Part shown: positions 46,723 to 59,175 of the stretch, piece by piece
How the letters are laid out: each line of letters opens with the position of its first letter
Position numbering within the stretch: the first letter of the stretch is position 1
From: Actinomycetes bacterium
Lineage (GTDB): Bacteria > Actinomycetota > Actinomycetes > S36-B12
Length of the DNA: 59,175 nt
Assembly (NCBI GenBank): GCA_024641635.1
Contig: JAHECS010000005.1
Span: forward strand, 1-59,175
Direction of reading: 5' to 3'
Program-made: the position numbers and the translations under genes
The notes under the pieces: model-generated
The model's input: the letters and a program-made list of their open reading frames with translations, nothing else
The model's database searches: none
What the model was told of the DNA's origin: nothing

Positions 46723-48171
46723 CTATGAGTCGATGTTCGCCATGACGTGCTTGATGCGCGTGTAGTCCTCGAACCCGTACATCGACAGGTCCTTGCCGTA
46801 GCCCGAGTGCTTGAAGCCGCCGTGCGGCATCTCGGCGACCAGCGGGATATGCGTGTTGATCCACACGCAGCCGAAGTCGAGGTACTTGGCCATCCGCATC
46901 GCCCGGCCGAAGTCCTTCGTCCACACCGATGACGCGAGCCCGAACGGGACGCCGTTGGCCCAGGTCAGCGCATCCGCCTCGTCGGTGAACTTCTGGACCG
47001 TGATGACCGGTCCGAAGATCTCGTTCTGGATCATCTCGTCGTCCTGCCGGAGGTCGGCGACCACCGTTGGCTCGATGTAGTAGCCGCGCTCGCCCTGACG
47101 GATGCCGCCCGCCGTGATCTGCGCGTGCGACGGCGCGCGCTCGATGAAGCCCAGCACTCGCTCGAGCTGACTTGCGTTGTTGACCGGCGGAACCATCGCC
47201 TCGCCGCCGGGGCCCTCCTCGAACGTGGTCGCGGTGGCCTTCGCCTGCTCGGACAGCGCAGCGACGAAGTCGTCGTAGATGCCTGCGCTGACGATCATGC
47301 GCGTGGCAGCCGTGCAGTCCTGGCCGGCATTGAAGTAGCCCGCGACCGCCAGCCACTCGGCGGCCGCCTCGAGGTCGGCGTCATCGAAGATGACGACGGG
47401 TGCCTTGCCGCCCAGCTCCAGGTGCACGCGCTTCACGTCGCGGGCGGCCGACTCGGCCACCTGCATGCCGGCGCGCACGGATCCGGTGATCGACACCATC
47501 TGCGGGATCTGGTGCTCGACGAGGGCGCGGCCGCTGTCTCGATCGCCGCAGATGACGTTGAGGACGCCGTCCGGAAGGGCGCCGGCCTCGTGGATGATCT
47601 CGGCCATCCGCACGGCGCTGACCGGCGTCGTGTCGCTGGGCTTGAGCACCACCGTGTTGCCGGCGGCGATGGCGGGCGCGAACTTCCACACCGCCATCAT
47701 CATCGGGTAGTTCCACGGTGCCACCTGACCGATGACCCCGACCGGCTCCCGGCGGATGATGGACGTGAAGCCCTTCATGTACTCGCCGGCCGAGCGGCCC
47801 TCGAGCACGCGCGCGGCACCCGCGAAGAACCGGATCTGGTCGATCATCGGGGGGATCTCCTCCGACATCGTCACCGCGACCGGCTTGCCGGTGTTCTCGC
47901 TCTCCAGGGCGACGAGCTCGTCGGCGTGCTCCTCGAGGGCGTCGGCGATCTTGAGCAGGGCCGTCTGACGCTCCGAGGGAGTGCTGTCGCGCCAGCTCTC
48001 GAACGCGGTCGCCGCCGCCGTGACGGCGCGGTCGACGTCGGCCTCCCCCGATACGACGGCCGTGGCGTACGCCTCGCCGGTCGAGGGGTTGTAGAGGTCG
48101 CTGGCGGTACCGTCGAGGGTGTCGACGCTCTCGCCGTTCACGAAGTTGCGGATGATGCGCTTCTCGCTCAC
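46723..48171 (-). CDS. Aldehyde dehydrogenase, gamma-aminobutyraldehyde type (copy 2)
   Basis: 482 residues; Cys286 (NAGQDCTAAT), Glu252 (LELGGKAP) and the C-terminal GKDLSMYGFEDYTRIKHVM place it with PatD-type enzymes, as a paralogue of the 35.8-kb gene. The GTG start at 48171 has GGGAGA in front; the frame upstream of it runs into the divergent operator region. It diverges from the Lrp gene and is probably regulated with it. Likely substrates are omega-aminoaldehydes from the nearby aminotransferase or amine oxidase. Confidence 0.9.
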   Translation of the reverse strand: MSEKRIIRNFVNGESVDTLDGTASDLYNPSTGEAYATAVVSGEADVDRAVTAAATAFESWRDSTPSERQTALLKIADALEEHADELVALESENTGKPVAVTMSEEIPPMIDQIRFFAGAARVLEGRSAGEYMKGFTSIIRREPVGVIGQVAPWNYPMMMAVWKFAPAIAAGNTVVLKPSDTTPVSAVRMAEIIHEAGALPDGVLNVICGDRDSGRALVEHQIPQMVSITGSVRAGMQVAESAARDVKRVHLELGGKAPVVIFDDADLEAAAEWLAVAGYFNAGQDCTAATRMIVSAGIYDDFVAALSEQAKATATTFEEGPGGEAMVPPVNNASQLERVLGFIERAPSHAQITAGGIRQGERGYYIEPTVVADLRQDDEMIQNEIFGPVITVQKFTDEADALTWANGVPFGLASSVWTKDFGRAMRMAKYLDFGCVWINTHIPLVAEMPHGGFKHSGYGKDLSMYGFEDYTRIKHVMANIDS

Positions 48172-48232
48172 GCGGTTCTCCCGGATCTGCCTGCGGACTG
48201 GTGCGGTTGAGCGTAGCCGACAGGCGACGAAT

Positions 48233-48244
48233 ATTGGATACAAT
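48233..48244. promoter_or_regulatory. GntR-type palindrome ATTGGATACAAT at the lrp/aldehyde-dehydrogenase promoter
   Basis: Identical on the opposite strand to the 12-mer at 57294-57305 and differing by one base from the two copies at 55452 and 55471. Its form (TTGkATmCAA) fits the operators of FCD-type GntR proteins. It sits about 61 bp upstream of the aldehyde dehydrogenase start. Confidence 0.55.
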
Positions 48245-48270
48245 CCACGGATTCGATACGGAATTCGTGG
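48245..48270. promoter_or_regulatory. Imperfect 26-bp palindrome, candidate Lrp operator
   Basis: Arms CCACGgATTC ... GAATtCGTGG pair at 9 of 10 positions about a 6-bp centre, directly joined to the GntR-type site. Lrp/AsnC proteins usually bind such sites upstream of their own gene. The location between two divergent starts would let it control both. Confidence 0.5.
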
Positions 48271-48314
48271 TCTTTGTCGTAAATTACCGCGAAATCGCTT
48301 GCCTTGGCTACCCC

Positions 48315-48809
48315 ATGTCGCGCATTATGTCCGTCATGCCGCCACGTGACCGCGCTCCAGCCGCTCCTCTCGATGACGTCTCCAAGGCGATCATCGAGCA
48401 GCTGCAGCAGGATGGCCGACGCCCCTATGCGGCGATCGGCAAGGCGGTCGGGCTCTCGGAGGCCGCGGTGCGCCAGCGCGTGCAGCGGCTGCAGGACTCC
48501 GGGGTCATGCAGATCGTGGCCGTGACCGATCCCCTCCAGGTCGGCTTCTCGCGAGCGGCCATGATCGGGATCCGGACGGAGGGCGACGTGGAGGAGATCG
48601 CCGACACGCTGTCTGAGATGCCCGAGGTCGACTATCTCGTCGTCTGCGCTGGCAGCTTCGACATCCTCGCTGAGGTCGTCGCCGAGGACGACGACCACCT
48701 CCTCGAGGTCATCAACCGGCGGATCCGGATGATCCCCGGGGTTCGAGCGACCGAGACATTCGTCTACTTGAAACTGCGCAAGCAGATCTACACCTGGGGA
48801 ACACGATGA
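48315..48809 (+). CDS. Lrp/AsnC-family transcriptional regulator
   Basis: 164 residues. N-terminal helix-turn-helix (DDVSKAIIEQLQQDGRRPYAAIGKAVGLSEAAVRQRVQRLQDSG) and C-terminal RAM/AsnC ligand domain (EVDYLVVCAGSFDILAEVVAEDDDHLLEVI). The start is uncertain: ATGs at 48315, 48327 and 48336 are in frame without a clear ribosome binding site, and the last gives 157 residues. It overlaps the aminotransferase start by ATGA, so it likely senses the aminotransferase substrate, such as beta-alanine or a diamine. Confidence 0.88.
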   Translation: MSRIMSVMPPRDRAPAAPLDDVSKAIIEQLQQDGRRPYAAIGKAVGLSEAAVRQRVQRLQDSGVMQIVAVTDPLQVGFSRAAMIGIRTEGDVEEIADTLSEMPEVDYLVVCAGSFDILAEVVAEDDDHLLEVINRRIRMIPGVRATETFVYLKLRKQIYTWGTR

Positions 48810-50209
48810 CGAGCACGCCACAGCCCATCACCGAGCCCGGCCCGGACGTCCTGGCCGACAAGGCGCGCGACCACCTCTGGATGCCGTTCACCCGGCACTC
48901 GCACTTCTACGACGGGTCGGGGCACGTGCCCGTCATCGTCAGGGGCGAGGGCGCCTACGTGTTCGACGACCAGGGCAAGCGGTACCTGGACGGCCTTGCC
49001 GGCCTGTTCACCGTGCAGGCGGGCCACGGTCGTGCCTCGATCGGCCAGGCCATGGCCCGGCAGGCCGAGGAACTGGCGTTCTTCCCGATCTGGTCGTATG
49101 CGCATCCGAGGGCCATCGAGCTGGCCGAGCGCCTGGCCGACTACGCCCCGGGTGACCTCAACCGCGTGTTCTTCACCAGTGGCGGCGGCGAGGCCGTCGA
49201 GACCGCGTGGAAGCTGGCGAAGCAGTACTTCAAGCTGACCGGCCAGCCCACCAAGCACAAGGTCATCTCCCGGTCGGTCGCCTACCACGGCACCCCGCAT
49301 GGGGCGCTGTCGATCACCGGGATCCCCGACGCCAAGGTCGACTTCGAGCCGCTCGTCCCCAGCGCGGTCAAGGTGCCCAACACGAACTTCTACCGCGCGC
49401 CCGACGAGTACCAGCACGACGAGAAGGCGTTCGGCCGATGGGCCGCGGAGCGCATCGCGGAGGCCATCGAGTTCGAAGGCCCCAACAGCGTCGCCGCCGT
49501 GTTCCTCGAGCCGGTGCAGAACTCCGGCGGCTGCTTCCCGCCGCCCCCCGGATACCTCGAGAGGGTGCGGGAGATCTGCGACCAGTACGACGTCCTCATG
49601 GTGGCCGACGAGACGATCACGGCGTTCGGGCGCATCGGCGACATGTTCGCCATGAACCGCTTCGGCGTGACTCCCGACATCATCACCTGTGCGAAGGGCA
49701 TGACGTCGGGCTACGCGCCGATGGGCGCCATGATCGCGAGCGAACGACTCTTCGAGCCGTTCCGCCATGGCACGAACACGTTCCTGCACGGCTTCACCTG
49801 GTCGGGCCACCCGGTCGGTGCGGCCGCGGCCCTCGCCAACCTCGACATCTTCGAGTCCGAGGGCCTGAACGCGCACGTGCGCGAGAACGAGTCCCGGTTC
49901 CGCCAGACCCTCGAGAAGCTCCTCGACCTCCCGATCGTGGGCGACGTCCGCGGAGCCGGCTACTTCTACGGCATCGAGCTGGTCAAGGACAAGATCACGC
50001 GTGAGACGCTCAGCGACGACGAGGCCGAGCGCGTCCTGCGTGGCTTCCTGTCGAAGGCTCTGTTCGATGCGGGCCTCTACTGCCGTGCGGACGACCGCGG
50101 CGACCCCGTGGTGCAGCTCGCTCCCCCGCTGATCATCGGCCAGCCGGAGTTCGACGAGATCGAGCAGATCCTTCGCTCGGTGCTGTCGGAGGCATGGACG
50201 CTCCTGTGA
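48806..50209 (+). CDS. Class III omega-aminotransferase (beta-alanine/diamine:pyruvate type)
   Basis: 467 residues; D268 (VADETITAFG) and PLP lysine K297 (TCAKGMTSGYAPMGA). The opening LWMPFTRH and FFPIWSYAHP segments are typical of the omega-amino-acid:pyruvate and putrescine:pyruvate group rather than GabT. It could make malonate semialdehyde from beta-alanine, the step missing from the pyrimidine operon, or deaminate putrescine. Substrate is inference. Confidence 0.88.
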   Translation: MTSTPQPITEPGPDVLADKARDHLWMPFTRHSHFYDGSGHVPVIVRGEGAYVFDDQGKRYLDGLAGLFTVQAGHGRASIGQAMARQAEELAFFPIWSYAHPRAIELAERLADYAPGDLNRVFFTSGGGEAVETAWKLAKQYFKLTGQPTKHKVISRSVAYHGTPHGALSITGIPDAKVDFEPLVPSAVKVPNTNFYRAPDEYQHDEKAFGRWAAERIAEAIEFEGPNSVAAVFLEPVQNSGGCFPPPPGYLERVREICDQYDVLMVADETITAFGRIGDMFAMNRFGVTPDIITCAKGMTSGYAPMGAMIASERLFEPFRHGTNTFLHGFTWSGHPVGAAAALANLDIFESEGLNAHVRENESRFRQTLEKLLDLPIVGDVRGAGYFYGIELVKDKITRETLSDDEAERVLRGFLSKALFDAGLYCRADDRGDPVVQLAPPLIIGQPEFDEIEQILRSVLSEAWTLL

Positions 50210-50225
50210 CCAGCACCTCACGTCC

Positions 50226-50891
50226 ATGACGTCCGCTCCGGGGTCCACGGAGCGGACGAGGGTCCGACGCCTTCCGGAGAAGGCAGTCACCGACGTCGCC
50301 GCGCTGCACGCTGTGCTCGATGCCGGTCTCGTGGCCCACGTCTCGGTTGTCGACGGGGGGATGCCCTTCGTGCTCCCGGTCGCCTACGCCAGGCGCGGGG
50401 ACGAGGTGGTGTTCCACGGGTCGACTGGTTCACGCCTGTTCCGCCTGCTCGCGGACGGGCAGCCCATGTGCCTCACGGTGACCCTGCTCGACGGGCTCGT
50501 CCTTGCCCGCAGCGCCTTCGAGTCGAGCATGAACTACCGCTCGGCGATGGTGCTCGGCACGGCACGGCGACTGCGCGACGACGACGAGCTCGATGCCCTT
50601 CGGGTGATCACCGAGCACCTGCTTCCCGGACGCTGGGCCGAGGCGCGCCACCCATCCCGCAAGGAACGGGCAGCGACGATGGCCCTCGCCCTCGACCTCA
50701 CCGAGGCTTCGGCCAAGGTCAGCGCAGGAGGGCCGAGCGACGACCCGGACGACCTGCTCGACCCCGAGCTGATGCGCCTGTGGGCAGGGCGGGTGCCCAT
50801 CGTGGAGCGATTCGGGGATCCGATCCCCGACGAACTGTGCCCTGCTGGTACCGCGGTCCCGGACTACGTGCGGTCATGGCGGCGTGGATGA
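50226..50891 (+). CDS. Flavin split-barrel protein (pyridoxamine-phosphate-oxidase-like)
   Basis: 221 residues, split beta-barrel fold (VAHVSVVDGGMPFVLPVAYAR... FHGSTGSRLFRLLADGQPMCLTV) of the Pyridox_ox_2 type that binds FMN, F420 or haem. The C-terminal helical extension has PGRWAEARHPS, common in this group. It lies 16 bp after the aminotransferase and overlaps the amine oxidase start by ATGA. Function unknown; it might serve PLP or flavin chemistry for its neighbours. Confidence 0.8.
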   Translation: MTSAPGSTERTRVRRLPEKAVTDVAALHAVLDAGLVAHVSVVDGGMPFVLPVAYARRGDEVVFHGSTGSRLFRLLADGQPMCLTVTLLDGLVLARSAFESSMNYRSAMVLGTARRLRDDDELDALRVITEHLLPGRWAEARHPSRKERAATMALALDLTEASAKVSAGGPSDDPDDLLDPELMRLWAGRVPIVERFGDPIPDELCPAGTAVPDYVRSWRRG

Positions 50892-52273
50892 ATGACGACC
50901 TGCGGCACCTGTCCCTGTGGTGGGACACCCTGCCCGACGACCTTCGCCGACCCCTCGGGGGTCCACTGCCCGGGGACCTGACCGCCGATGTCGCCATCGT
51001 CGGTGCGGGCTACACGGGGCTCTGGACCGCCTACTACCTCGCGCGACTGGACCCCAGCCTGCGCATCGTCGTACTCGAGGCCGAGGAGGCCGGGTTCGGT
51101 GCCTCGGGCCGCAATGGCGGCTGGGCATCCGCGCTGTTCCCGGCCGGCCTGAGTGCGTTGGCCCGCAAGTCGAGCCGCGACGCGGCGATCAGGATGACCC
51201 GCGAGATGTTCGCGACCGTCGACGAGATCGGCCGGGTGGCACAGCTCGAGGGGTGGCAGGTCGACTGGAGCAAGGGTGGCACGGTCGTCGCGGCTCGGAC
51301 CCCGCTGCAGATGGCCACCGCACGCGACGAGATCGACAACCTCCGCTCGTGGGGTTTCGGCGCCGAGGACTACGCCCTGCTGGACAAGGCGGAGGCTGAG
51401 CGTCGCCTGGGCGCGACGGACGTTCTGGGCGGCACCTACACGCCGCACTGCGCTGCCGTGCACCCCGCCCGCCTCGTCAGGAGCCTGGCCCGTGCCGTCG
51501 TGCATTCCGGTGTCACGGTGCATGAGCACACTCGCGTGCTGGCCATCGAGCCCGGGGTCGTCCGCACCGAGCACGGCAATGTCCGGTCGGAGATCATCGT
51601 GCGAGGCACGGAGGGCTACACGCGCACGCTGTCCGGGCACACGCGCACCCTGGCGCCGGTGTACTCCCTCATGCTCGCGACCGAGCCTCTGCCCGCCACC
51701 GCATGGGCGGGGATCGGCCTTGCTCAGCGGGAGACCTTCTCTGACGGACGACACCTCGTCATCTACGGCCAGCGAACCGCTGACGACCGCCTCGCGTTCG
51801 GGGGCAGGGGTGCGCCGTACCACTTCGGGTCGCGGATCACCGCTGAGCAGGATCAGAACCCTCAGGTCCATGCCGCCCTCTGGGAGGTGCTGACCGACCT
51901 GTTCCCGGTCGTGAGCCACGCGGCCGTGACGCACACGTGGGGCGGACCGCTTGGCGTCCCACGCGACTGGTGGGCGTCGTGCGGGCTCGACCGCAAGACC
52001 GGGCTGGCCTGGTCGGGCGGCTACGTCGGTGACGGAGTGGGCACGAGCAACCTCGGCGGACGCACCCTCGCCGACCTCATCACCGGGCGGGACTCCGACA
52101 TCACGTCCCTGCCCTGGGTCAACCATCGATCCAAGCCGTGGGAGCCCGAGCCGTTCCGCTGGATGGGCACGAACGTGGGGCTTCGGGTCATGACCCGTGC
52201 CGACGACACGGAGACCCGGACCGGACGCCGCTCCCGGACCGCGGCGCTGTTCGCCCGGAAGATCGGCCACTAG
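50888..52273 (+). CDS. FAD-dependent amine/amino-acid oxidase (DAO family), copy 2
   Basis: 461 residues. GAGYTGLWTAYYLA motif at 39-52, ASGRNGGWASALFP and C-terminal GYVGDGVGTSNLGG. It is paralogous to the 30.1-kb oxidase (GAGFTGLWT... ATGRNGGF). The start ATG at 50888 was chosen for its ATGA overlap with the previous stop; an ATG at 50876 would add four residues. Likely a second amine oxidase with different specificity. Confidence 0.87.
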   Translation: MNDDLRHLSLWWDTLPDDLRRPLGGPLPGDLTADVAIVGAGYTGLWTAYYLARLDPSLRIVVLEAEEAGFGASGRNGGWASALFPAGLSALARKSSRDAAIRMTREMFATVDEIGRVAQLEGWQVDWSKGGTVVAARTPLQMATARDEIDNLRSWGFGAEDYALLDKAEAERRLGATDVLGGTYTPHCAAVHPARLVRSLARAVVHSGVTVHEHTRVLAIEPGVVRTEHGNVRSEIIVRGTEGYTRTLSGHTRTLAPVYSLMLATEPLPATAWAGIGLAQRETFSDGRHLVIYGQRTADDRLAFGGRGAPYHFGSRITAEQDQNPQVHAALWEVLTDLFPVVSHAAVTHTWGGPLGVPRDWWASCGLDRKTGLAWSGGYVGDGVGTSNLGGRTLADLITGRDSDITSLPWVNHRSKPWEPEPFRWMGTNVGLRVMTRADDTETRTGRRSRTAALFARKIGH

Positions 52274-52301
52274 TCTGGGGCGTTCCCCATCCGGAGGCGC
52301 C

Positions 52302-52766
52302 GTGGAGATCCAGGAGCTCGGGCATCTCGTCCTCTACGTGCGCGACCTGCGCCGTTCGGTCCACTTCTACCGGGACGTTCTCGGGTGGCGGCTCGTCATG
52401 GGAGGCGACGACCCCCCGGGATTCCCTGTGGCCGCGTTCGCGGCGCCGAGCGGGCGAACCCACCACGAGCTCCTGCTCATCGAGGTCGGCGTCGACGCGG
52501 CGGCGCTGCCCGAGGGCCGACGTGTCGGGCTCTACCACTTCGGCCTGAAGGTGGGCGACAGCGACGACGACCTGCGGGATGCCCTCGGGACCGTGCAGGA
52601 GCACGGCGTGCCGATCATCGGGGCCAGCGACCACACCATCACGCACAGCCTGTACATCCTCGATCCGGACGGGAACCAGATCGAGCTCTACATCGACGTC
52701 CCCGGCGTTGACTGGCGCAACGACCCGAGCCTCATCGCCTCGCCCGTCCGGCCGCTGCGGCTGTGA
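52302..52766 (+). CDS. VOC-family (glyoxalase/extradiol-dioxygenase-like) protein
   Basis: 154 residues with the paired beta-alpha-beta-beta-beta modules of vicinal-oxygen-chelate proteins. Metal-ligand pattern: H8 (ELGHLVLYVRD), H in HTITHSLY and E in GNQIELY. Length and LDPDGNQIELY close to catechol-2,3-dioxygenase-type members. GTG start at 52302 has GGAGG. Convergent with the aldehyde dehydrogenase of region 5, 19 bp between stops. Substrate unknown. Confidence 0.82.
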   Translation: MEIQELGHLVLYVRDLRRSVHFYRDVLGWRLVMGGDDPPGFPVAAFAAPSGRTHHELLLIEVGVDAAALPEGRRVGLYHFGLKVGDSDDDLRDALGTVQEHGVPIIGASDHTITHSLYILDPDGNQIELYIDVPGVDWRNDPSLIASPVRPLRL

Positions 52767-52785
52767 CGCGCGACCGGCAGGGCCG

Positions 52786-54234
52786 CTAGGGAGAGCCGGG
52801 GGCGGTGTAGGACGTCTTCGACGTCGTGAAGAAGTCCACGGCGGCGGTGCCCTGCTCCCGGGGACCGTGGCTGCTCTCCCCTCGACCTCCGAACGGCACG
52901 TGGAAGTCGACCCCGGCTGTCGGCAGGTTGACCATCACCATCCCGGCGCGCGAGTTGCGGCGGAAGTGAGCGGCCTCGGCAAGCGATGTCGTGACGATCC
53001 CGGCCGAGAGGTTCATCGTTCCCGCATTCGCGGCCTCAAGTGCACCGTCGTAGTCGGCCACACGCACCACCGACATGACCGGACCGAATACCTCCTCGCG
53101 GTTGATGGTGTCCGCCATGGACGTGCCAAGGGCGAGGGCCGGAGACAGGTAGTGCCCGGACGCGCCCGCGTCGACCTCGTCGCCGCCGATGATGTCCGCC
53201 CCCTCGGCACGGGCGACGTCGAGATAGCGCCGGTCCTGTGCGTACTGGCCGGCGTCGACGACGGGACCCATGTCCGTCCCCTCAGCGCGGGCGTCGCCGA
53301 CCCGCCAGTGGGTCATGCGCTCGGTCATTGCCGCGACGAAGGCGTCGTGGACGTCGTCCGTGACGACGAGGATCGACGAGGCGGTGCACCTCTGCCCGGT
53401 CGAGCCGAAGCCTCCCTGCATGGCGCACTCGACCGCGACGCGGAGGTCGGCCTTGCCCGTGACCACCAGGGGGTTCTTGCCGCCGAGCTCCAGCTGCACC
53501 TTCGTGCCCGAACCCGCGCCGGCGGTCAGGATCCCCTGTCCGGTCGCGACCGACCCCGTGAACGTCACCGCGTCAACTGCGGGATCCCCGGTGAGGACCG
53601 GGCCGACCTGGGACCCGCGACCGAGGACGAGATTGAGTGCCCCGGCGGGCAGGCCCGCCCTGATGAGGATGTCGACGAGCTCCCACGCGCTTGCCGGGAC
53701 CAGGTCGGCCGGCTTGAACACGACGGTGTTGCCGAATGCGAGCGCGGGCGCGATCTTCCAGGCGGGGATGGCGATGGGGAAGTTCCACGGCGTGATCACG
53801 CTGACCACGCCGACCGGCTCGCGGGTGACCGTGACCTCGATGCCGGGGCGAACGGAGTCGAGGGCCTGGCCGTGCGGCTGGAGTGCCACGCCGGAGAAGT
53901 ACTTGAGGATCTGGCCGGCACGGACGACCTCGGCCCTCGCCTCGGGATACGTCTTCCCCTCCTCGCGCGCGAGGAGATCGCCGAGCTCGTCGGCCCTGGC
54001 GAAGATCTCCGTCCCGGCGCGGTCCAGCACCTCGGCCCGCTGCCACGGCGTGGATCGGGACCACGATGGCAGGGCGTCCGCCGCCGCCGTGACGGCCGCT
54101 CGCGCCACGGCAGGCCCGGCGATGCTCGAGACCGCGACGACATCGGACAGGTCGGACGGATTGACGTCGGGGCGCTCCTCGTCGCCGTCGATCGGCTCCC
54201 CGGCGAGAACCGACGTCAGGACACGTGGCGTCAC
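52786..54234 (-). CDS. Aldehyde dehydrogenase, semialdehyde type (copy 3)
   Basis: 482 residues; Cys283 in GSTGQRCTASS and Glu249 in LELGGKNP. The GSTGQRCT signature resembles 2-oxoglutarate-semialdehyde and related dicarboxylate semialdehyde dehydrogenases and differs from the PatD-type copies. The GTG start at 54234 overlaps the acyl-CoA dehydrogenase stop by GTGA. In context, glutarate semialdehyde (from 5-aminovalerate) or succinate semialdehyde would be sensible substrates. Confidence 0.85.
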   Translation of the reverse strand: MTPRVLTSVLAGEPIDGDEERPDVNPSDLSDVVAVSSIAGPAVARAAVTAAADALPSWSRSTPWQRAEVLDRAGTEIFARADELGDLLAREEGKTYPEARAEVVRAGQILKYFSGVALQPHGQALDSVRPGIEVTVTREPVGVVSVITPWNFPIAIPAWKIAPALAFGNTVVFKPADLVPASAWELVDILIRAGLPAGALNLVLGRGSQVGPVLTGDPAVDAVTFTGSVATGQGILTAGAGSGTKVQLELGGKNPLVVTGKADLRVAVECAMQGGFGSTGQRCTASSILVVTDDVHDAFVAAMTERMTHWRVGDARAEGTDMGPVVDAGQYAQDRRYLDVARAEGADIIGGDEVDAGASGHYLSPALALGTSMADTINREEVFGPVMSVVRVADYDGALEAANAGTMNLSAGIVTTSLAEAAHFRRNSRAGMVMVNLPTAGVDFHVPFGGRGESSHGPREQGTAAVDFFTTSKTSYTAPGSP

Positions 54235-55406
54235 CGGTACGCCGCGATCCCGGTCAGGGCCTGGCCGACGACGAGGGTGTGCATCTCGTTCGTGCCCTCG
54301 TAGGTCAGCACGGACTCGAGGTTGTTCATGTGGCGGATGACCGGGTACTCGAGCGTGATCCCGTTTCCGCCGAGGATGCTCCGGCACTCGCGGGCGATGG
54401 CCAACGACTCGCGCGCGTTGTTGAGCTTGCCCACGCTGACCTGCTCCGGACGGATGAGGTGCTCGTCCTTGAGCCGCCCGAGATGGAGGGCGAGCAGCAT
54501 GCCCTTGCCCAGCTCGAGGGCCATGTCGGCCAGCTTCTTCTGCGTGAGCTGGAACGCGGCGATCGGCTTGTCGAACTGCTCGCGGGAGATGCTGTAGTCG
54601 ATGGCCGTCTGCAGGCTGTCACGGGCGGCGCCCAGCGTGCCGAAGACGATCCCGAAGCGGGCCTCACCCAGGCAGGACAGAGGTCCACGCAGCCCCACGA
54701 CGCCAGGAAGGACCGCGTCCGCAGGGAGGCGGACGCCGTCGAGGACCAGTTCGCTGGTCACCGAAGCGCGCAGCGACATCTTCTTGTGGATCTCGTTCGC
54801 CCGGAAGCCAGGGGTCTGAGTCGGCACGACGAAGCCGCGGATCCCGTCGTCCGTGCGGGCCCACACGACAGCGACGTCGGCGACACTCCCGTTGGTGATC
54901 CACATCTTGGAGCCGTCCAGGACCCAGTCGTCTCCGTCACGGCGAGCGCTCGTGCGCATGCCGCTGGGGTTCGAGCCGAAATCGGCCTCGGTGAGGCCGA
55001 AGCATCCGATGGCTTCGCCGGTCGCCATCCGTGGCAGCCAGTCCTGCTTCTGCTCCTCCGAGCCGAACGCGCGGATGGCGTGCATCGCCAGGGAACCCTG
55101 CACGCTGACCAGGGAGCGGATGCCGGAGTCTCCCGCCTCCAGCTCGAGGCAGGCGAGACCGTAGGCCACCGCCGATGTCCCCTGGCAGCCGTAGCCCTCG
55201 AGGTGCATGCCCAGGACGCCGAGGGAGCCCAGGTCGCGGGCGAGCTCCCGGGCCGGGATGCTGCCGGACTCGAACCAGTCGGCGATGTGCGGGCGGATCT
55301 CGGAGTCGACGAACTCGCGCACGACGTCGCGGATGGCTCGCTCCTCCTCCGACAGCAGGTGATCGATGTCGAAGAGTGCGAAGGGCGTCTGCGGCGCCTG
55401 GGTCAT
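54231..55406 (-). CDS. gcdH: Glutaryl-CoA dehydrogenase-like acyl-CoA dehydrogenase
   Basis: 391 residues, acyl-CoA dehydrogenase fold with FAD motifs (FGLTEADFGSNPSGM, WITNGSVADVAVVWA). Features of glutaryl-CoA dehydrogenase are present: Arg97 within DSGIRSLVSVQGSLAMH, which binds the substrate carboxylate, and the general base Glu370 in TYEGTNEMHTLVVGQ. It would convert glutaryl-CoA to crotonyl-CoA and CO2. The upstream gap carries two GntR-type palindromes. Neighbour CoA-transferase supports glutarate as the entry compound. Confidence 0.88.
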   Translation of the reverse strand: MTQAPQTPFALFDIDHLLSEEERAIRDVVREFVDSEIRPHIADWFESGSIPARELARDLGSLGVLGMHLEGYGCQGTSAVAYGLACLELEAGDSGIRSLVSVQGSLAMHAIRAFGSEEQKQDWLPRMATGEAIGCFGLTEADFGSNPSGMRTSARRDGDDWVLDGSKMWITNGSVADVAVVWARTDDGIRGFVVPTQTPGFRANEIHKKMSLRASVTSELVLDGVRLPADAVLPGVVGLRGPLSCLGEARFGIVFGTLGAARDSLQTAIDYSISREQFDKPIAAFQLTQKKLADMALELGKGMLLALHLGRLKDEHLIRPEQVSVGKLNNARESLAIARECRSILGGNGITLEYPVIRHMNNLESVLTYEGTNEMHTLVVGQALTGIAAYR

Positions 55407-55451
55407 GTCTCCTCCGAAGGGACGGTGGGGTCGGCCGATGTTGTCACGGGA

Positions 55452-55482
55452 ATTGGATCCAATCTAGCAGATTGGATCCAAT
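55452..55482. promoter_or_regulatory. Tandem GntR-type operators upstream of gcdH
   Basis: Two identical perfect palindromes ATTGGATCCAAT at 55452-55463 and 55471-55482, centres 19 bp apart, in the 76-bp gap between the GntR stop and the gcdH start. Spacing of about two helical turns would place two dimers on the same face of the DNA. Strong candidates for binding by the GntR protein encoded directly upstream. Confidence 0.75.
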
Positions 55483-56139
55483 TCACGGCGAGCGCTCCCC
55501 GAGGAGAGCCCGCACCGCGTCGACCGAGTGGTCGCGGTGCTCATCGTGCAGGCGGACGAGCGCCTCCGCGTCCCGCGCCCGCAGCGCCGTCATCATCTGG
55601 GCATGCTCGCCCGAGACACGCTCACGGTTGCCGGGAGACTGGAAGTACAGCGCACGATAGGCGTCGGTCGCCTCCCACAGCTGACGGAGCAGGCGGGACA
55701 GCCGGGGCAGCCCCGCCGCGTCGAAGAGCGCGAAGTGGAACCGTCGGTTGGCCACCGTCATCTCCATGACGTCGACCCGGTCCGCCGCGGCCTCAACCTG
55801 CGCGGCCAGCTCGGCCACCGCGTCGACATCGGCATCGGTCAGCGTCGGCACGGCCGCCCGGATGGCCTCCGCCTCCAGCAGCTCACGCAGCCGGTACACC
55901 TCGAGCAGGTCGGCCACGCTGAGCTCGCTCACGAAGTAGCCGCGATGCGGGTGGTAGACCACCTGCCCCTCCGACTCGAGGGTCTTCAGCGCCTCGCGCA
56001 GGGGGACGCGGCTGACGCCGTACCTTTCGGCCAGGGACTCCTGGACGATCTGGTCCCCCGGCTCCAGCTCACCGGTGAGGATGTCCGAGCGCAGCGCGGC
56101 CAGCACGGCGTCCTGCGCGGTGACCCTGCGCTCGCTCAT
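55483..56139 (-). CDS. GntR/FCD-family transcriptional regulator
   Basis: 218 residues. Winged helix-turn-helix (ALRSDILTGELEPGDQIVQESLAERYGVSRVPLREALKTLESEG), then an all-helical FCD ligand domain with conserved metal/ligand residues (RLRELLEAEAI, NRRFHFALFDAAG, EHAQMMTALRARD, HDEH). FCD proteins sense small carboxylates. It lies between the CoA-transferase (ATGA overlap) and gcdH; the operators flank its operon, so autoregulated repression relieved by glutarate or its CoA ester is likely. Confidence 0.93.
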   Translation of the reverse strand: MSERRVTAQDAVLAALRSDILTGELEPGDQIVQESLAERYGVSRVPLREALKTLESEGQVVYHPHRGYFVSELSVADLLEVYRLRELLEAEAIRAAVPTLTDADVDAVAELAAQVEAAADRVDVMEMTVANRRFHFALFDAAGLPRLSRLLRQLWEATDAYRALYFQSPGNRERVSGEHAQMMTALRARDAEALVRLHDEHRDHSVDAVRALLGERSP

Positions 56140-57287
56140 CGAGACCGTCCGGCGAGCAGCTGCAGCACCGCGGTGCGGTCCTCGTCGAGGCGCGGCGGCG
56201 CCGATCGGTACTCCGGCGGCGTCACACCGAATGCGACGGGGTTGGCGACCTGCGGCTCGGGACCTGGACGCCTCGCATCCTCGACCTCGACGACCGGAGC
56301 GAGCCCAAGCCGCTCAGCCAGGGCGAACGCCTGGGCAACGTCGTTGATGGGTCCGCAGGGAACGCCCGCCTCCGTCAGGCGCTCCTGCCAGATGTCCGCG
56401 GCCGCCCCGCCCAAGACCTCCTCCAGCAGATCCCTGAGCTCCTCGCGATGCTTCACCCTCTGGGAGTTGGTGCAGAAGCGCGGGTCGTCGGCGAGCCCAG
56501 CGAGGCCGAGGACCGACGACAGCTGCGAGAACTGCCCGTCGTTGCCGACCGCCAGGACGAGGGGCCGATCCGCCGCCTCGAACACCTCGTACGGCGCGAT
56601 GGACGGGTGCGCGTTGCCCATGCGCCCGGGCACGCTGCCGGCGCCGACGAATCCGGAGGCCTGGTTGACCAGGGAGGACAGCAGGCTGCCGAGCAGTGTC
56701 ACCTCGAGCAGCTGCCCCTGACCGGTCACGTCCCGGTGCCTCAGTGCCGCGAGGATCGCAACGGTGGCGTGCAGGCCGGTGAGGACGTCCACCACCGCAA
56801 CCCCGGCCTTGGTGGGCTCCTGCGAGCCGGTGATGCTCATGAGTCCGCCCATGGCCTGGACCAGCAGGTCGTATCCGGGCAGGTCGCGGCCTCCCGTCGA
56901 CCCGAAGCCGCTGATCGAGCAGTAGACGAGGCCGGGGTTGTCGATGGCGACGTCCGGATGGCCGAGGCCGAACCGAGCGAGGGCCCCCGGCTTGTAGTTC
57001 TCGACCAGGACGTCGGCTGAGATGGCGAGACGACGAGCGACGTCGAGGTCGTCCGGATCGCGCAGGTCGAGCGCGATGGACAGCTTGTTGCGGTTGACGG
57101 ACTGGAAGTAGGTGGACTGCCCGTCGGGCGCGAAGGGTGGCCCCCAGGACCGGGTGTCGTCCCCCGATCCTGGACGCTCGACCTTGACGACCGTCGCGCC
57201 GAGGTCGGCGAGCAGCATCGTCGCGTACGGTCCGGCCAGCACGCGCGAGAAGTCGGCGACGACGATCCCGTCGAGGGCACCCGGCAT
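56136..57287 (-). CDS. Class III CoA-transferase (CaiB/BaiF family)
   Basis: 383 residues; the family's opening LDGIVVADFSRVLAGPYATMLLADLGATVVKVE and the catalytic Asp140 in PGYDLLVQAMGGLMSITG are present. Paired with gcdH it is most likely a succinyl-CoA/glutarate CoA-transferase (SUGCT-like), making glutaryl-CoA. Other dicarboxylates are possible. Start ATG at 57287; a GntR-type palindrome lies 7-18 bp upstream of it, so a bound repressor would block initiation. Confidence 0.88.
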   Translation of the reverse strand: MPGALDGIVVADFSRVLAGPYATMLLADLGATVVKVERPGSGDDTRSWGPPFAPDGQSTYFQSVNRNKLSIALDLRDPDDLDVARRLAISADVLVENYKPGALARFGLGHPDVAIDNPGLVYCSISGFGSTGGRDLPGYDLLVQAMGGLMSITGSQEPTKAGVAVVDVLTGLHATVAILAALRHRDVTGQGQLLEVTLLGSLLSSLVNQASGFVGAGSVPGRMGNAHPSIAPYEVFEAADRPLVLAVGNDGQFSQLSSVLGLAGLADDPRFCTNSQRVKHREELRDLLEEVLGGAAADIWQERLTEAGVPCGPINDVAQAFALAERLGLAPVVEVEDARRPGPEPQVANPVAFGVTPPEYRSAPPRLDEDRTAVLQLLAGRSR

Positions 57288-57293
57288 AGCGGG

Positions 57294-57305
57294 ATTGTAT
57301 CCAAT
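57294..57305. promoter_or_regulatory. GntR-type palindrome at the CoA-transferase start
   Basis: ATTGGATACAAT on the minus strand, 6 bp from the CoA-transferase ATG and within the 31-bp gap after the acyl-CoA-synthetase stop. Matches the site at 48233 exactly. The position inside the leader suggests either repression of an internal promoter or a roadblock to read-through. Confidence 0.6.
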
Positions 57306-57318
57306 CCTGCCGCCTAGG

Positions 57319-59175
57319 TCAGCCCGTTGTGCCGGAGGCCTGCAGCAGCGGGGTGATCGCGTCGAGGACCCGGACGTCCTCGATGGTGCTCGGGACCGCC
57401 TCGGGCCGACCGTCGGCGATCCCCCGCATCGTCCGTCGCAGGATCTTGCCGGACCTCGTCTTCGGCAGGCCGGGCACGATGACGACCTCCTTGAGGGCAG
57501 CGACCGGACCGATCTGCTCCCGGATCGCCGCCACCACCTCCGCCTGGAGCTGCGCGGGGTCCGCGTCGACCCCGGCCTTGAGCACGACGAAGGCCCTCGG
57601 CACCTGTCCTTTGAGGGCATCGCCCACGCCGATCACCGCGCACTCGGCCACCTGCGGATGAGCGGCGACAACGGCCTCCATGGACCCGGTCGACAGGCGG
57701 TGCCCGGCCACATTGATGACGTCGTCCGTGCGGCCCATGACGTACACGTACCCGTCCTCGTCCAGATAGCCGCCGTCGCCGGTCGTGTAGCACCCGTCGA
57801 ACACGCTCAGGTACGAGTCGATGTAGCGCTGGTCGTCGCCCCAGAGGGTGGGCAGCGTGCCTGGCGGCAGCGGCAGCCCGATGACGATCGCGCCGTCCTG
57901 TCCGGCCGGCACGTTGTCCCCTGCGCCATCGACGACGCGCACGTCGTAGCCGGGAACGGGCACGGTGGGCGAGCCCGGCTTGATCGGCATGGGCTCCAAC
58001 CCACGCAGGTTCGAGGCGATCGGCCAGCCCGTCTCGGTCTGCCACCAGTTGTCGACGACCGGGACCCCGACGTGATCCGTGGCCCAGTGGTATGTGTCGG
58101 GGTCGAGGCGCTCGCCGGCCAGGAACAGCGCGCGAAGGGACGACACGTCATGGTCGCGGACGAGGGCCCCCTCAGGGTCCTCCTTCTTGATCGCCCGGAT
58201 CGCCGTGGGAGCGGTGAACAGTCCCGCCACCCCGAGCTCGTCGATCACCCGCCAGAAGGCACCGGCATCGGGGGTACCTACCGGCTTCCCCTCGTAGAGG
58301 ACCGTGGTCGCGCCACTGAGCAGCGGTGCGTACACGATGTACGAGTGCCCGACGACCCAGCCCACGTCCGAGGCGGCCCACCAGGTGTCGTCCGGACCCA
58401 TCCCGTACACGTTGTCGAAGGACCACGTCAGCGCCACGGCGTGACCGCCGTTGTCCCGCACGACGCCCTTCGGCCGCCCCGTCGTCCCTGACGTGTAGAG
58501 GATGTAGAGCGGATCCGTCGCCTTCACCGGGACGGCCGCGTGCGGCTGGGCGACGGACATCCGCTCGTGCCAGTCGACGTCGAGGTCACCCATCTCCGCT
58601 CGTGCCTGCGGGCGCTGCAGGACCACGGATGCGACGGGAACGTGTCGGGCCAGCCGAAGGGCCTCGTCGAGCAGGGGCTTGTACTCGACGATTCGCCCCG
58701 GCTCGATTCCGCAGCTGGCCGACACGATCACGGTTGGCTCGGCGTCGTCGATCCTGGCCGCCAGCTCCGCCGGGGCGAAGCCGCCGAAGACGACCGAGTG
58801 CACGGCGCCCAGACGGGCGCAGGCGAGCATGGCCACGACGGCCTCGGGAACCATCGGCATGTAGACGATCACCCGATCGCCGCGGCGGACGCCGAGGTCG
58901 GCGAGCACGCCCGCGAATCGCTCCACCATGTCGAGCAAGGCCGCGTACGTGATCGCGGCCTTCGTGCCCGTCACGGGGCTGTCGTAGCGGATGGCGATCC
59001 GGTCCCCGCGGCCGCTGGCCACATGCCGGTCCACGGCGTTGGCGCACGTGTTGAGCACCCCGTCCGGGAACCATCGGTAGAGCGGCGGAGTTGATGCGTC
59101 CAAGCCGACGGACGGCGGCACCACCCAGTCGACCCGCTGGGAAGCCTCGAGCCAGAAGCCGCTCGGATCGCCGAG
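57319..59175 (-). CDS. Propionyl/acetyl-CoA synthetase-like acyl-CoA synthetase (5' end outside window)
   Basis: 618 visible residues of an AMP-forming acyl-CoA synthetase. Motifs: A3 YTSGTTGRPKG, A5-like WWQTETGWP, YTTGDGGYLDEDGY, VMGRTDDVINVAGHRLSTG and the C-terminal lysine region PKTRSGKILRRTMR. The last of these is a Gcn5-type acetylation site of acetyl/propionyl-CoA synthetases. The N-terminal start is cut: codons continue to the window edge (LGDPSGFWLEASQRVDW). PrpE is the best guess; it probably activates propionate, acetate or a similar acid. Confidence 0.88.
   Translation of the reverse strand, partial: LGDPSGFWLEASQRVDWVVPPSVGLDASTPPLYRWFPDGVLNTCANAVDRHVASGRGDRIAIRYDSPVTGTKAAITYAALLDMVERFAGVLADLGVRRGDRVIVYMPMVPEAVVAMLACARLGAVHSVVFGGFAPAELAARIDDAEPTVIVSASCGIEPGRIVEYKPLLDEALRLARHVPVASVVLQRPQARAEMGDLDVDWHERMSVAQPHAAVPVKATDPLYILYTSGTTGRPKGVVRDNGGHAVALTWSFDNVYGMGPDDTWWAASDVGWVVGHSYIVYAPLLSGATTVLYEGKPVGTPDAGAFWRVIDELGVAGLFTAPTAIRAIKKEDPEGALVRDHDVSSLRALFLAGERLDPDTYHWATDHVGVPVVDNWWQTETGWPIASNLRGLEPMPIKPGSPTVPVPGYDVRVVDGAGDNVPAGQDGAIVIGLPLPPGTLPTLWGDDQRYIDSYLSVFDGCYTTGDGGYLDEDGYVYVMGRTDDVINVAGHRLSTGSMEAVVAAHPQVAECAVIGVGDALKGQVPRAFVVLKAGVDADPAQLQAEVVAAIREQIGPVAALKEVVIVPGLPKTRSGKILRRTMRGIADGRPEAVPSTIEDVRVLDAITPLLQASGTTG

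Follow-up and report, generated by a model that had tools for sequence, protein, structure and literature searches.

A predicted GntR regulon of glutarate-to-crotonyl-CoA genes in an actinobacterial order, with operators on or beside putative -10 boxes

The window analysed here is a whole stretch of 59,175 nucleotides, contig JAHECS010000005.1 of an Actinomycetes bacterium (assembly GCA_024641635.1; GTDB lineage Actinomycetota, Actinomycetes, S36-B12), in which two gene groups share a 12-bp palindrome. The first is transcribed from the minus strand in the order acyl-CoA synthetase, caiB-type CoA-transferase, gntR, gcdH and aldehyde dehydrogenase, and the second comprises an lrp gene and a class III aminotransferase gene on the plus strand, divergent from patD on the minus strand. 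The palindrome stands once before caiB, twice before gcdH and once between patD and lrp. Very probably, these four sites are operators of a VanR-group GntR repressor of the genes leading from glutarate to crotonyl-CoA. As far as sequence comparison can tell, the predicted regulon is real, well conserved and of a known kind, with an unusually tight operator-promoter fusion at caiB, and it is somewhat wider in related genomes than an earlier sequence-only reading of this DNA had held.

That reading had listed four 12-bp palindromes, and a pattern search found each of them at its place and on its strand. The window contains no further match to ATTGGATMCAAT even when two mismatches are allowed, and the eight strand-matches obtained, against a mean of 1.14 in shuffled versions of the window, were reached in none of 100 shuffles. 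None of the four sites lies within an accepted gene, in line with the earlier reading, which had noticed none in coding sequence, and two of them are overrun by mechanically called open reading frames (ORFs) with upstream alternative starts. A search of the whole assembly (3,060,365 bases in 82 contigs, 96.88% complete) gave the exact motif at four places, all in the window, which, with the shuffles, bears out the statement that four copies within 9 kb are unlikely by chance. One mismatch added a single place, C12:11052, within an unrelated ORF, while the reversed pattern used as control gave none at up to one mismatch; the motif is thus not commonplace at random positions of this genome. At up to two mismatches, the assembly yields 18 places versus three for the control; surroundings were read for the four exact copies and two others of these 18. 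One match of this level, C82:37232, has a paralogous GntR gene at a distance of 590 bases. For finding regulon members across the genome, the two-mismatch pattern was dropped for lack of specificity.

The exact motif ATTGKATMCAAT occurs at 75 places in 37 of 59 genomes of the order, the window's own genome included, and the reversed pattern at none in any of the 59. Sorted by the gene that they precede, 33 of these places belong to gcdH, 20 to caiB, 10 to etfB, four to patD/lrp, two to ccr and three to a pyruvate dehydrogenase E1 operon beside the paralogous GntR gene, and three are tied to no pathway gene. Hence, 72 of the 75 precede a listed target gene, 57 of them gcdH, caiB or patD/lrp and 12 more etfB or ccr, and the motif is conserved beside orthologous operons, as a regulon would demand. 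When a close GntR orthologue is defined by E <= 1e-45, 32 genomes possess both orthologue and exact motif, three the orthologue only, five the motif only and 19 neither (Fisher p = 3e-8, kinship not corrected); among the five motif-only genomes, G028 has an orthologue truncated at a contig end. Around gntR itself, caiB or gcdH adjoins the gene in 33 of 35 mapped loci, and an exact site precedes caiB or gcdH in 29 of 35, with one-mismatch sites only in three and none in three. In a collection of named records, 14 of whose 28 loci were already contained in the order set, the motif was found in 26, the exceptions being a gene at a contig end and a 31%-identical Rhodobacteraceae match. Beyond the order, the analysis covered 11 orthologue-bearing genomes from other orders of the class, of which six carry an exact site, two a one-mismatch site only and three none.

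With regard to caiB, the loci were counted for exact sites at most 180 bases upstream, in 20 genomes of the order plus 10 additional named records regarded as relatives. All 30 show the same arrangement, namely ATTGGATACAAT, six bases and the first in-frame start codon, and in all 30 the first T of TACAAT stands 12 bases before that codon. A TANNNT hexamer around 12 bp upstream is reported to mark leaderless genes (PMC3160421). The caiB gene has this layout by sequence, and TACAAT (57299-57294, minus strand) is likely the -10 box of a leaderless caiB mRNA. A promoter scan of two stretches returned one promoter in each, both with TACAAT within the operator, that is, CTGACC-17-TACAAT at caiB and CCGACA-16-TACAAT (48217-48244) facing lrp. 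The sites before gcdH are mostly symmetric (24 ATTGGATCCAAT and 12 ATTGGATACAAT in the order and the named records), the leader is longer than at caiB, and by eye a TAnnnT box often follows the site. The candidate gcdH -10 box TAGATT (55466-55461, minus strand) was likewise picked by eye; the promoter scan did not find it. Repression is the natural reading, because RNA polymerase should be kept out wherever these sites are occupied by protein, and GntR most likely acts as a repressor. In the mechanism that we propose, this FCD regulator, encoded between caiB and gcdH, would control the glutarate-to-crotonyl-CoA segment, its dimer binding ATTGKATMCAAT on or beside the -10 box of each promoter. 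At caiB, the operator half TACAAT would double as the -10 box of the leaderless mRNA, and bound repressor would block it; at gcdH, two operators 19 bases apart would flank the -10 box; and a single operator between patD and lrp would cover the lrp -10 box together with the patD -35 region. A metabolite of the pathway, most likely glutarate or glutaryl-CoA, would release the repressor.

Table 1. Predicted operators and annotated genes of the two loci (window coordinates)
Feature	Coordinates	Strand	Placement or support
Operator at caiB, ATTGGATACAAT	57294..57305	-	31-base gap between acyl-CoA synthetase stop (57319) and caiB start (57287); exact match
Distal gcdH operator, ATTGGATCCAAT	55471..55482	-	Abuts gntR stop codon (gene end 55483); exact match
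Proximal gcdH operator, ATTGGATCCAAT	55452..55463	-	Overlaps candidate -10 box TAGATT
patD/lrp operator, ATTGGATACAAT	48233..48244	+	Between divergent patD (start 48171) and lrp (start ~48315); TACAAT half towards lrp-aminotransferase
Acyl-CoA synthetase	57319-59124	-	Directly precedes caiB
caiB-type class III CoA-transferase	56136..57287	-	PF02515; best NCBIfam model succinate--glutarate CoA-transferase, 362.5 bits, below cut-off 750
gntR, 218-aa FCD GntR regulator (VanR group), predicted repressor	55483..56139	-	PF00392 and PF07729
gcdH, glutaryl-CoA dehydrogenase	54231..55406	-	Scores of 630 bits (3swo) and 623 bits (3sf6) to entries named glutaryl-CoA dehydrogenase
Aldehyde dehydrogenase after gcdH	52786..54240	-	PF00171; best NCBIfam model 2,5-dioxovalerate dehydrogenase, below cut-off; exact start uncertain
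patD-like aminoaldehyde dehydrogenase	46723..48171	-	NCBIfam PRK13473 aminobutyraldehyde dehydrogenase, 704 bits, above cut-off 615
lrp/AsnC-type regulator, first gene of divergent operon	48315..48809	+	PF13404, PF01037
Class III (omega-) aminotransferase	48806..50209	+	PF00202; PRK06541, 797 bits, above cut-off 574

The regulator carries the GntR domain PF00392 (66.5 bits) and the FCD domain PF07729 (95.6 bits), both above their gathering scores, which places it in the FCD subfamily. In its structure model (pLDDT 93.4, 26 sequences), the N-terminal part comprises three helices and a wing, and the C-terminal part six helices, at residues 75-99, 102-120, 124-140, 145-157 + 159-166, 169-187 and 191-212, the fourth being counted as one despite a one-residue break at 158. 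Six FCD helices, without the extra helix that follows the linker in the FadR group, are the mark of the VanR group (PMC7797058), and the model shows this arrangement. The nearest solved folds are likewise of the VanR group (AlkR, TM 0.87/0.90; McbR; TM0439), with FadR at about 0.5, and judging from the model GntR belongs to that group. Among 26 aligned proteins, two of which are paralogues, R85, H135, H179 and H201 are invariant and N131 is nearly so; R85, N131 and H135 occupy the alignment positions of Arg86, Asn137 and His141 of Atu1419, and the spacing of H179 and H201 equals that of its His192 and His214 (PMC7797058). The conserved residues thus provide the three His and one Asn/Asp of the VanR-group metal site, predicted here as well. 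A carboxylate effector fits, because they match both this site and the citrate-contacting Arg86 of Atu1419; naming glutarate or glutaryl-CoA is a guess by analogy. Two known regulators were considered and set aside as orthologues: the protein scores 60 bits against a cut-off of 218 for the CsiR model, and neither csiD nor lhgO is among the eight region proteins scanned, which speaks against CsiR/GlaR; its neighbours are caiB, gcdH and aldehyde dehydrogenase rather than vanAB, which speaks, by neighbourhood only, against the vanillate regulator VanR.

The operator follows the genes through different layouts. Where the order is gcdH-caiB-gntR, the site stands before gcdH, and some relatives likewise have two sites upstream of gcdH, at a distance of 19-21 bases. 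In G047, G051 and G055, gcdH, caiB-gntR and etfBA lie apart (tens of kb or another contig) with a site at each, gcdH carrying two sites 20-21 bases apart. The etfBA genes code for an electron-transfer flavoprotein, the usual partner of glutaryl-CoA dehydrogenase. An exact site precedes etfB in five of 14 genomes of the genus (G002, G003, G007, G008 and G011) and was not found in the rest of the genus, the window's genome included, G004 offering too little upstream DNA. The etfB site is also present in G021, G043, G047, G051 and G055, the G043 etfB being a 78-residue piece at a contig end. In G051, alone among the 59 genomes, a double site precedes a gene for crotonyl-CoA carboxylase/reductase (ccr; 601 bits, above the cut-off) with a mutase-like gene after it (L147:529-4057); the ccr enzyme would act on what GcdH produces. 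By sequence, etfBA, and in one species ccr, thus belong to the predicted regulon in relatives and not in the window's own genome, where a site at etfB or ccr was sought and none is there. The operator-bearing etfB loci are L130-L134, L137, L144, L145, L149 and L151. In L132 and L133, both from the genus, etfBA continues into a 660-aa ORF, which is methylmalonyl-CoA-mutase-like in L132, and L130 holds part of one; this ORF possibly encodes an ethylmalonyl-CoA mutase.

The fourth site, at 48233, calls for separate treatment. It had been proposed that GntR controls gcdH-aldehyde dehydrogenase, the CoA-transferase and patD; the conserved places at gcdH and caiB uphold the first two, whereas the 48233 site is lineage-specific and turns its -10-like half towards lrp-aminotransferase. 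Among the best 30 patD matches (one, L095, with only 43 bases upstream, too little to judge), the loci outside the genus show no GntR site at up to two mismatches, with a few three-mismatch matches. The TACAAT half faces lrp in three of the four patD/lrp sites, that of G008 being symmetric, and a TACGCT box found by eye on the other strand (48215-48210) would place the operator on the patD -35 region. Where operons diverge, one site between them generally acts on both sides (PMC4494728). Control of patD by GntR through this site is therefore plausible, though not our first choice, and patD and lrp may both be controlled. Less probably, the site acts on lrp-aminotransferase only or is a decaying remnant, with patD under its own Lrp-type regulator only. 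This would agree with the CAAGYGAWTYCGY-like block found in 19 of 30 patD-lrp gaps, versus a GntR site in four of 30, and with the sole promoter that the scan returned in this stretch, which faces lrp and uses the operator as its -10. Against mere decay, the four exact sites, one in each of four species, share one place in the alignment although the flanking sequence has diverged; G012, the closest by PatD, has a three-mismatch remnant at that place. The CAAGYGAWTYCGY-like block (window gap 48172-48314 and relatives) is part of a possible inverted repeat and represents a candidate Lrp operator.

Many of these genomes possess a second FCD GntR gene, beside the pyruvate dehydrogenase E1 operon. 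Fourteen such loci were read (L245, i.e. G000:C82; L246-L255; L138-L140); neighbouring TGGATCCA cores stand 62-64 bases apart in nine and 73 apart in one, and the remaining ones have one core or none in the gap. The outer bases vary, with ATGGATCCAT in L246, L247, L250 and L252 and mixed forms in the others. Exact ATTGGATCCAAT occurs in three of the 14 loci, those of G018, G022 and G030, genomes without a close orthologue of the glutarate regulator; these three were picked for carrying an exact copy, a selection bias. G026, which also lacks a close orthologue, has no exact ATTGGATCCAAT at its paralogue. Separation of the two regulators by these outer bases is offered as a suggestion only.

Several observations weigh against a strict, uniformly conserved regulon. 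Of the 18 loci of the caiB-gntR-gcdH type, the window included, only 10 carry exact sites at both caiB and gcdH. In seven, the exact site is confined to caiB, and five of those seven show a second, one-mismatch copy 21 bases further upstream; in one (G017), it is confined to gcdH, with none at caiB. The exact patD site is limited to four of 30 loci, all in this genus (four of nine there), and a whole-assembly search found no site at the window genome's own etfB and ccr. G035, G048 and G057 have the orthologue with one-mismatch sites only and no exact motif, and G026 has the motif at gcdH and no close orthologue found; in G039, counted among the 32 genomes with both, the orthologue is 41% identical and both exact copies lie away from the pathway. 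Those two copies and one in G014:C7 are the three exact places without a pathway gene. In other orders, the stretches read of G191, G259 and G278 contain no site at up to one mismatch. Five caiB loci of other orders have spacings of 34, 21, 24, 23 and 6; the operator-promoter fusion is not general in the class, because of this variation. Finally, the paralogue's sites have the same GGATCC core, which makes cross-binding possible. As a side observation, the exact motif copies at L135:4299, L142:3987 and L143:4032 have as neighbours an epimerase, a nickel superoxide dismutase with a permease, and MFS and Nramp transporters, with no pathway gene nearby.

Three further explanations compete with repression by GntR itself. 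The same sites might serve an activator form, with GntR switching the genes on, and on the patD side one site does occupy what looks by eye like a -35 position; the caiB operator, however, holds the likely -10 box in 30 of 30 sites, where bound protein should exclude RNA polymerase, and both Atu1419 and VanR2 are repressors (PMC7797058; PMC12314914), which makes activation very unlikely. About as little credit can be given to the idea that the operators belong to the paralogue or are shared by both proteins: its own upstream regions do carry TGGATCCA palindromes, one of them exactly ATTGGATCCAAT in G018, G022 and G030, but just these genomes lack a close GntR orthologue, exact ATTGKATMCAAT is present in none of the 11 paralogue loci read in other genomes (two have a one-mismatch copy), and the pathway motif tracks the pathway-linked orthologue in 32 of the 35 genomes that possess it. 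As to chance, a short palindrome can recur at random, yet the shuffles, the lack of any other exact copy in the 3.06-Mb assembly and the empty reversed-pattern control render such an origin of the recurrence practically negligible.

Operators of this kind have precedents. In two inserts constructed for use in Caulobacter, the opening stretch holds ATTGGATCCAAT and a second ATTGGATCC, and at least one of these inserts was screened by vanillate induction (PMC6538847). That stretch is presumably the Caulobacter vanillate promoter with its VanR operator. As an operator sequence, ATTGGATCCAAT is then not new. Like the regulator predicted here, VanR of Caulobacter crescentus is a GntR-type repressor, that of vanAB (PMC6888825), but it controls vanillate demethylation rather than glutarate use and comes from an alphaproteobacterium. 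Atu1419 of Agrobacterium fabrum shares the VanR-group fold and matching Arg86 and metal-site positions; it is a repressor whose 10-bp palindrome ATGTATACAT overlaps -10 boxes (PMC7797058), comparable with the -10 overlap described above, whereas it is a tetramer of the hydroxycinnamate pathway with other palindrome bases and 24% identity in the structural alignment. The repressor VanR2 has the site GGGATCCC (PMC12314914), and the FadR subfamily consensus is NyGTM-N0-1-KACNy (PMC4494728). The earlier statement that FCD proteins bind TTGkATmCAA-like palindromes is too broad as a general rule, since the FadR, Atu1419 and VanR2 sites differ. Glutarate catabolism links the present system to CsiR and GcdR of Pseudomonas putida, for both of which glutarate has been reported as effector. 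The GntR repressor CsiR is relieved by glutarate or L-2-hydroxyglutarate and its footprint spans -10/-35, but it controls csiD-lhgO, and gcdH is activated there by a LysR protein (PMC6667623). By title or abstract start, no publication dealing with control of actinobacterial gcdH by a GntR protein was found, subscription journals and RegPrecise lying outside the search.

We can tentatively propose, as an idea that falls somewhat short of probable, that across the order one VanR-group repressor coordinates the steps from glutarate through glutaryl-CoA to crotonyl-CoA, together with etfBA in many species and ccr in places, by means of a 12-mer that is both operator and -10 box and sets a leaderless start, while the paralogue is set apart by the outer bases of the shared GGATCC core; in genomes without the glutarate regulator, this division may be looser. 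Blocking of a catabolic promoter by a repressor of the GntR type is in itself an ordinary mechanism. The predicted regulon would nevertheless be a specific one for a little-studied freshwater/aquatic actinobacterial group known mostly from metagenome-assembled genomes, a clean example from nature in which operator and leaderless promoter are fused, and the source of a repressor, probably responsive to glutarate, that is distinct from CsiR and GcdR, with possible use as a biosensor.

With regard to the enzymes, the assignment of gcdH to glutaryl-CoA dehydrogenase is a confident one by sequence, the caiB product is probably a succinate/glutarate CoA-transferase, and glutarate-semialdehyde dehydrogenase is a guess for the gene after gcdH. 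The class III enzyme is a probable diamine or amino-acid aminotransferase. Cadaverine and lysine breakdown runs through 5-aminovalerate and glutarate, and the gene cluster, with PatD and the aminotransferase nearby, probably fits such a route. The tie between glutarate use and amine catabolism drawn in the sequence-only reading holds as far as neighbourhood goes, aminotransferase and gcdH being co-located in 18 of 35 mapped gntR stretches with or without the fourth site; the 48233 site itself is of narrow occurrence at patD. In G012 (L036, 9700-12480), about 2.8 kb separate the acyl-CoA synthetase gene from caiB, unlike in the window.

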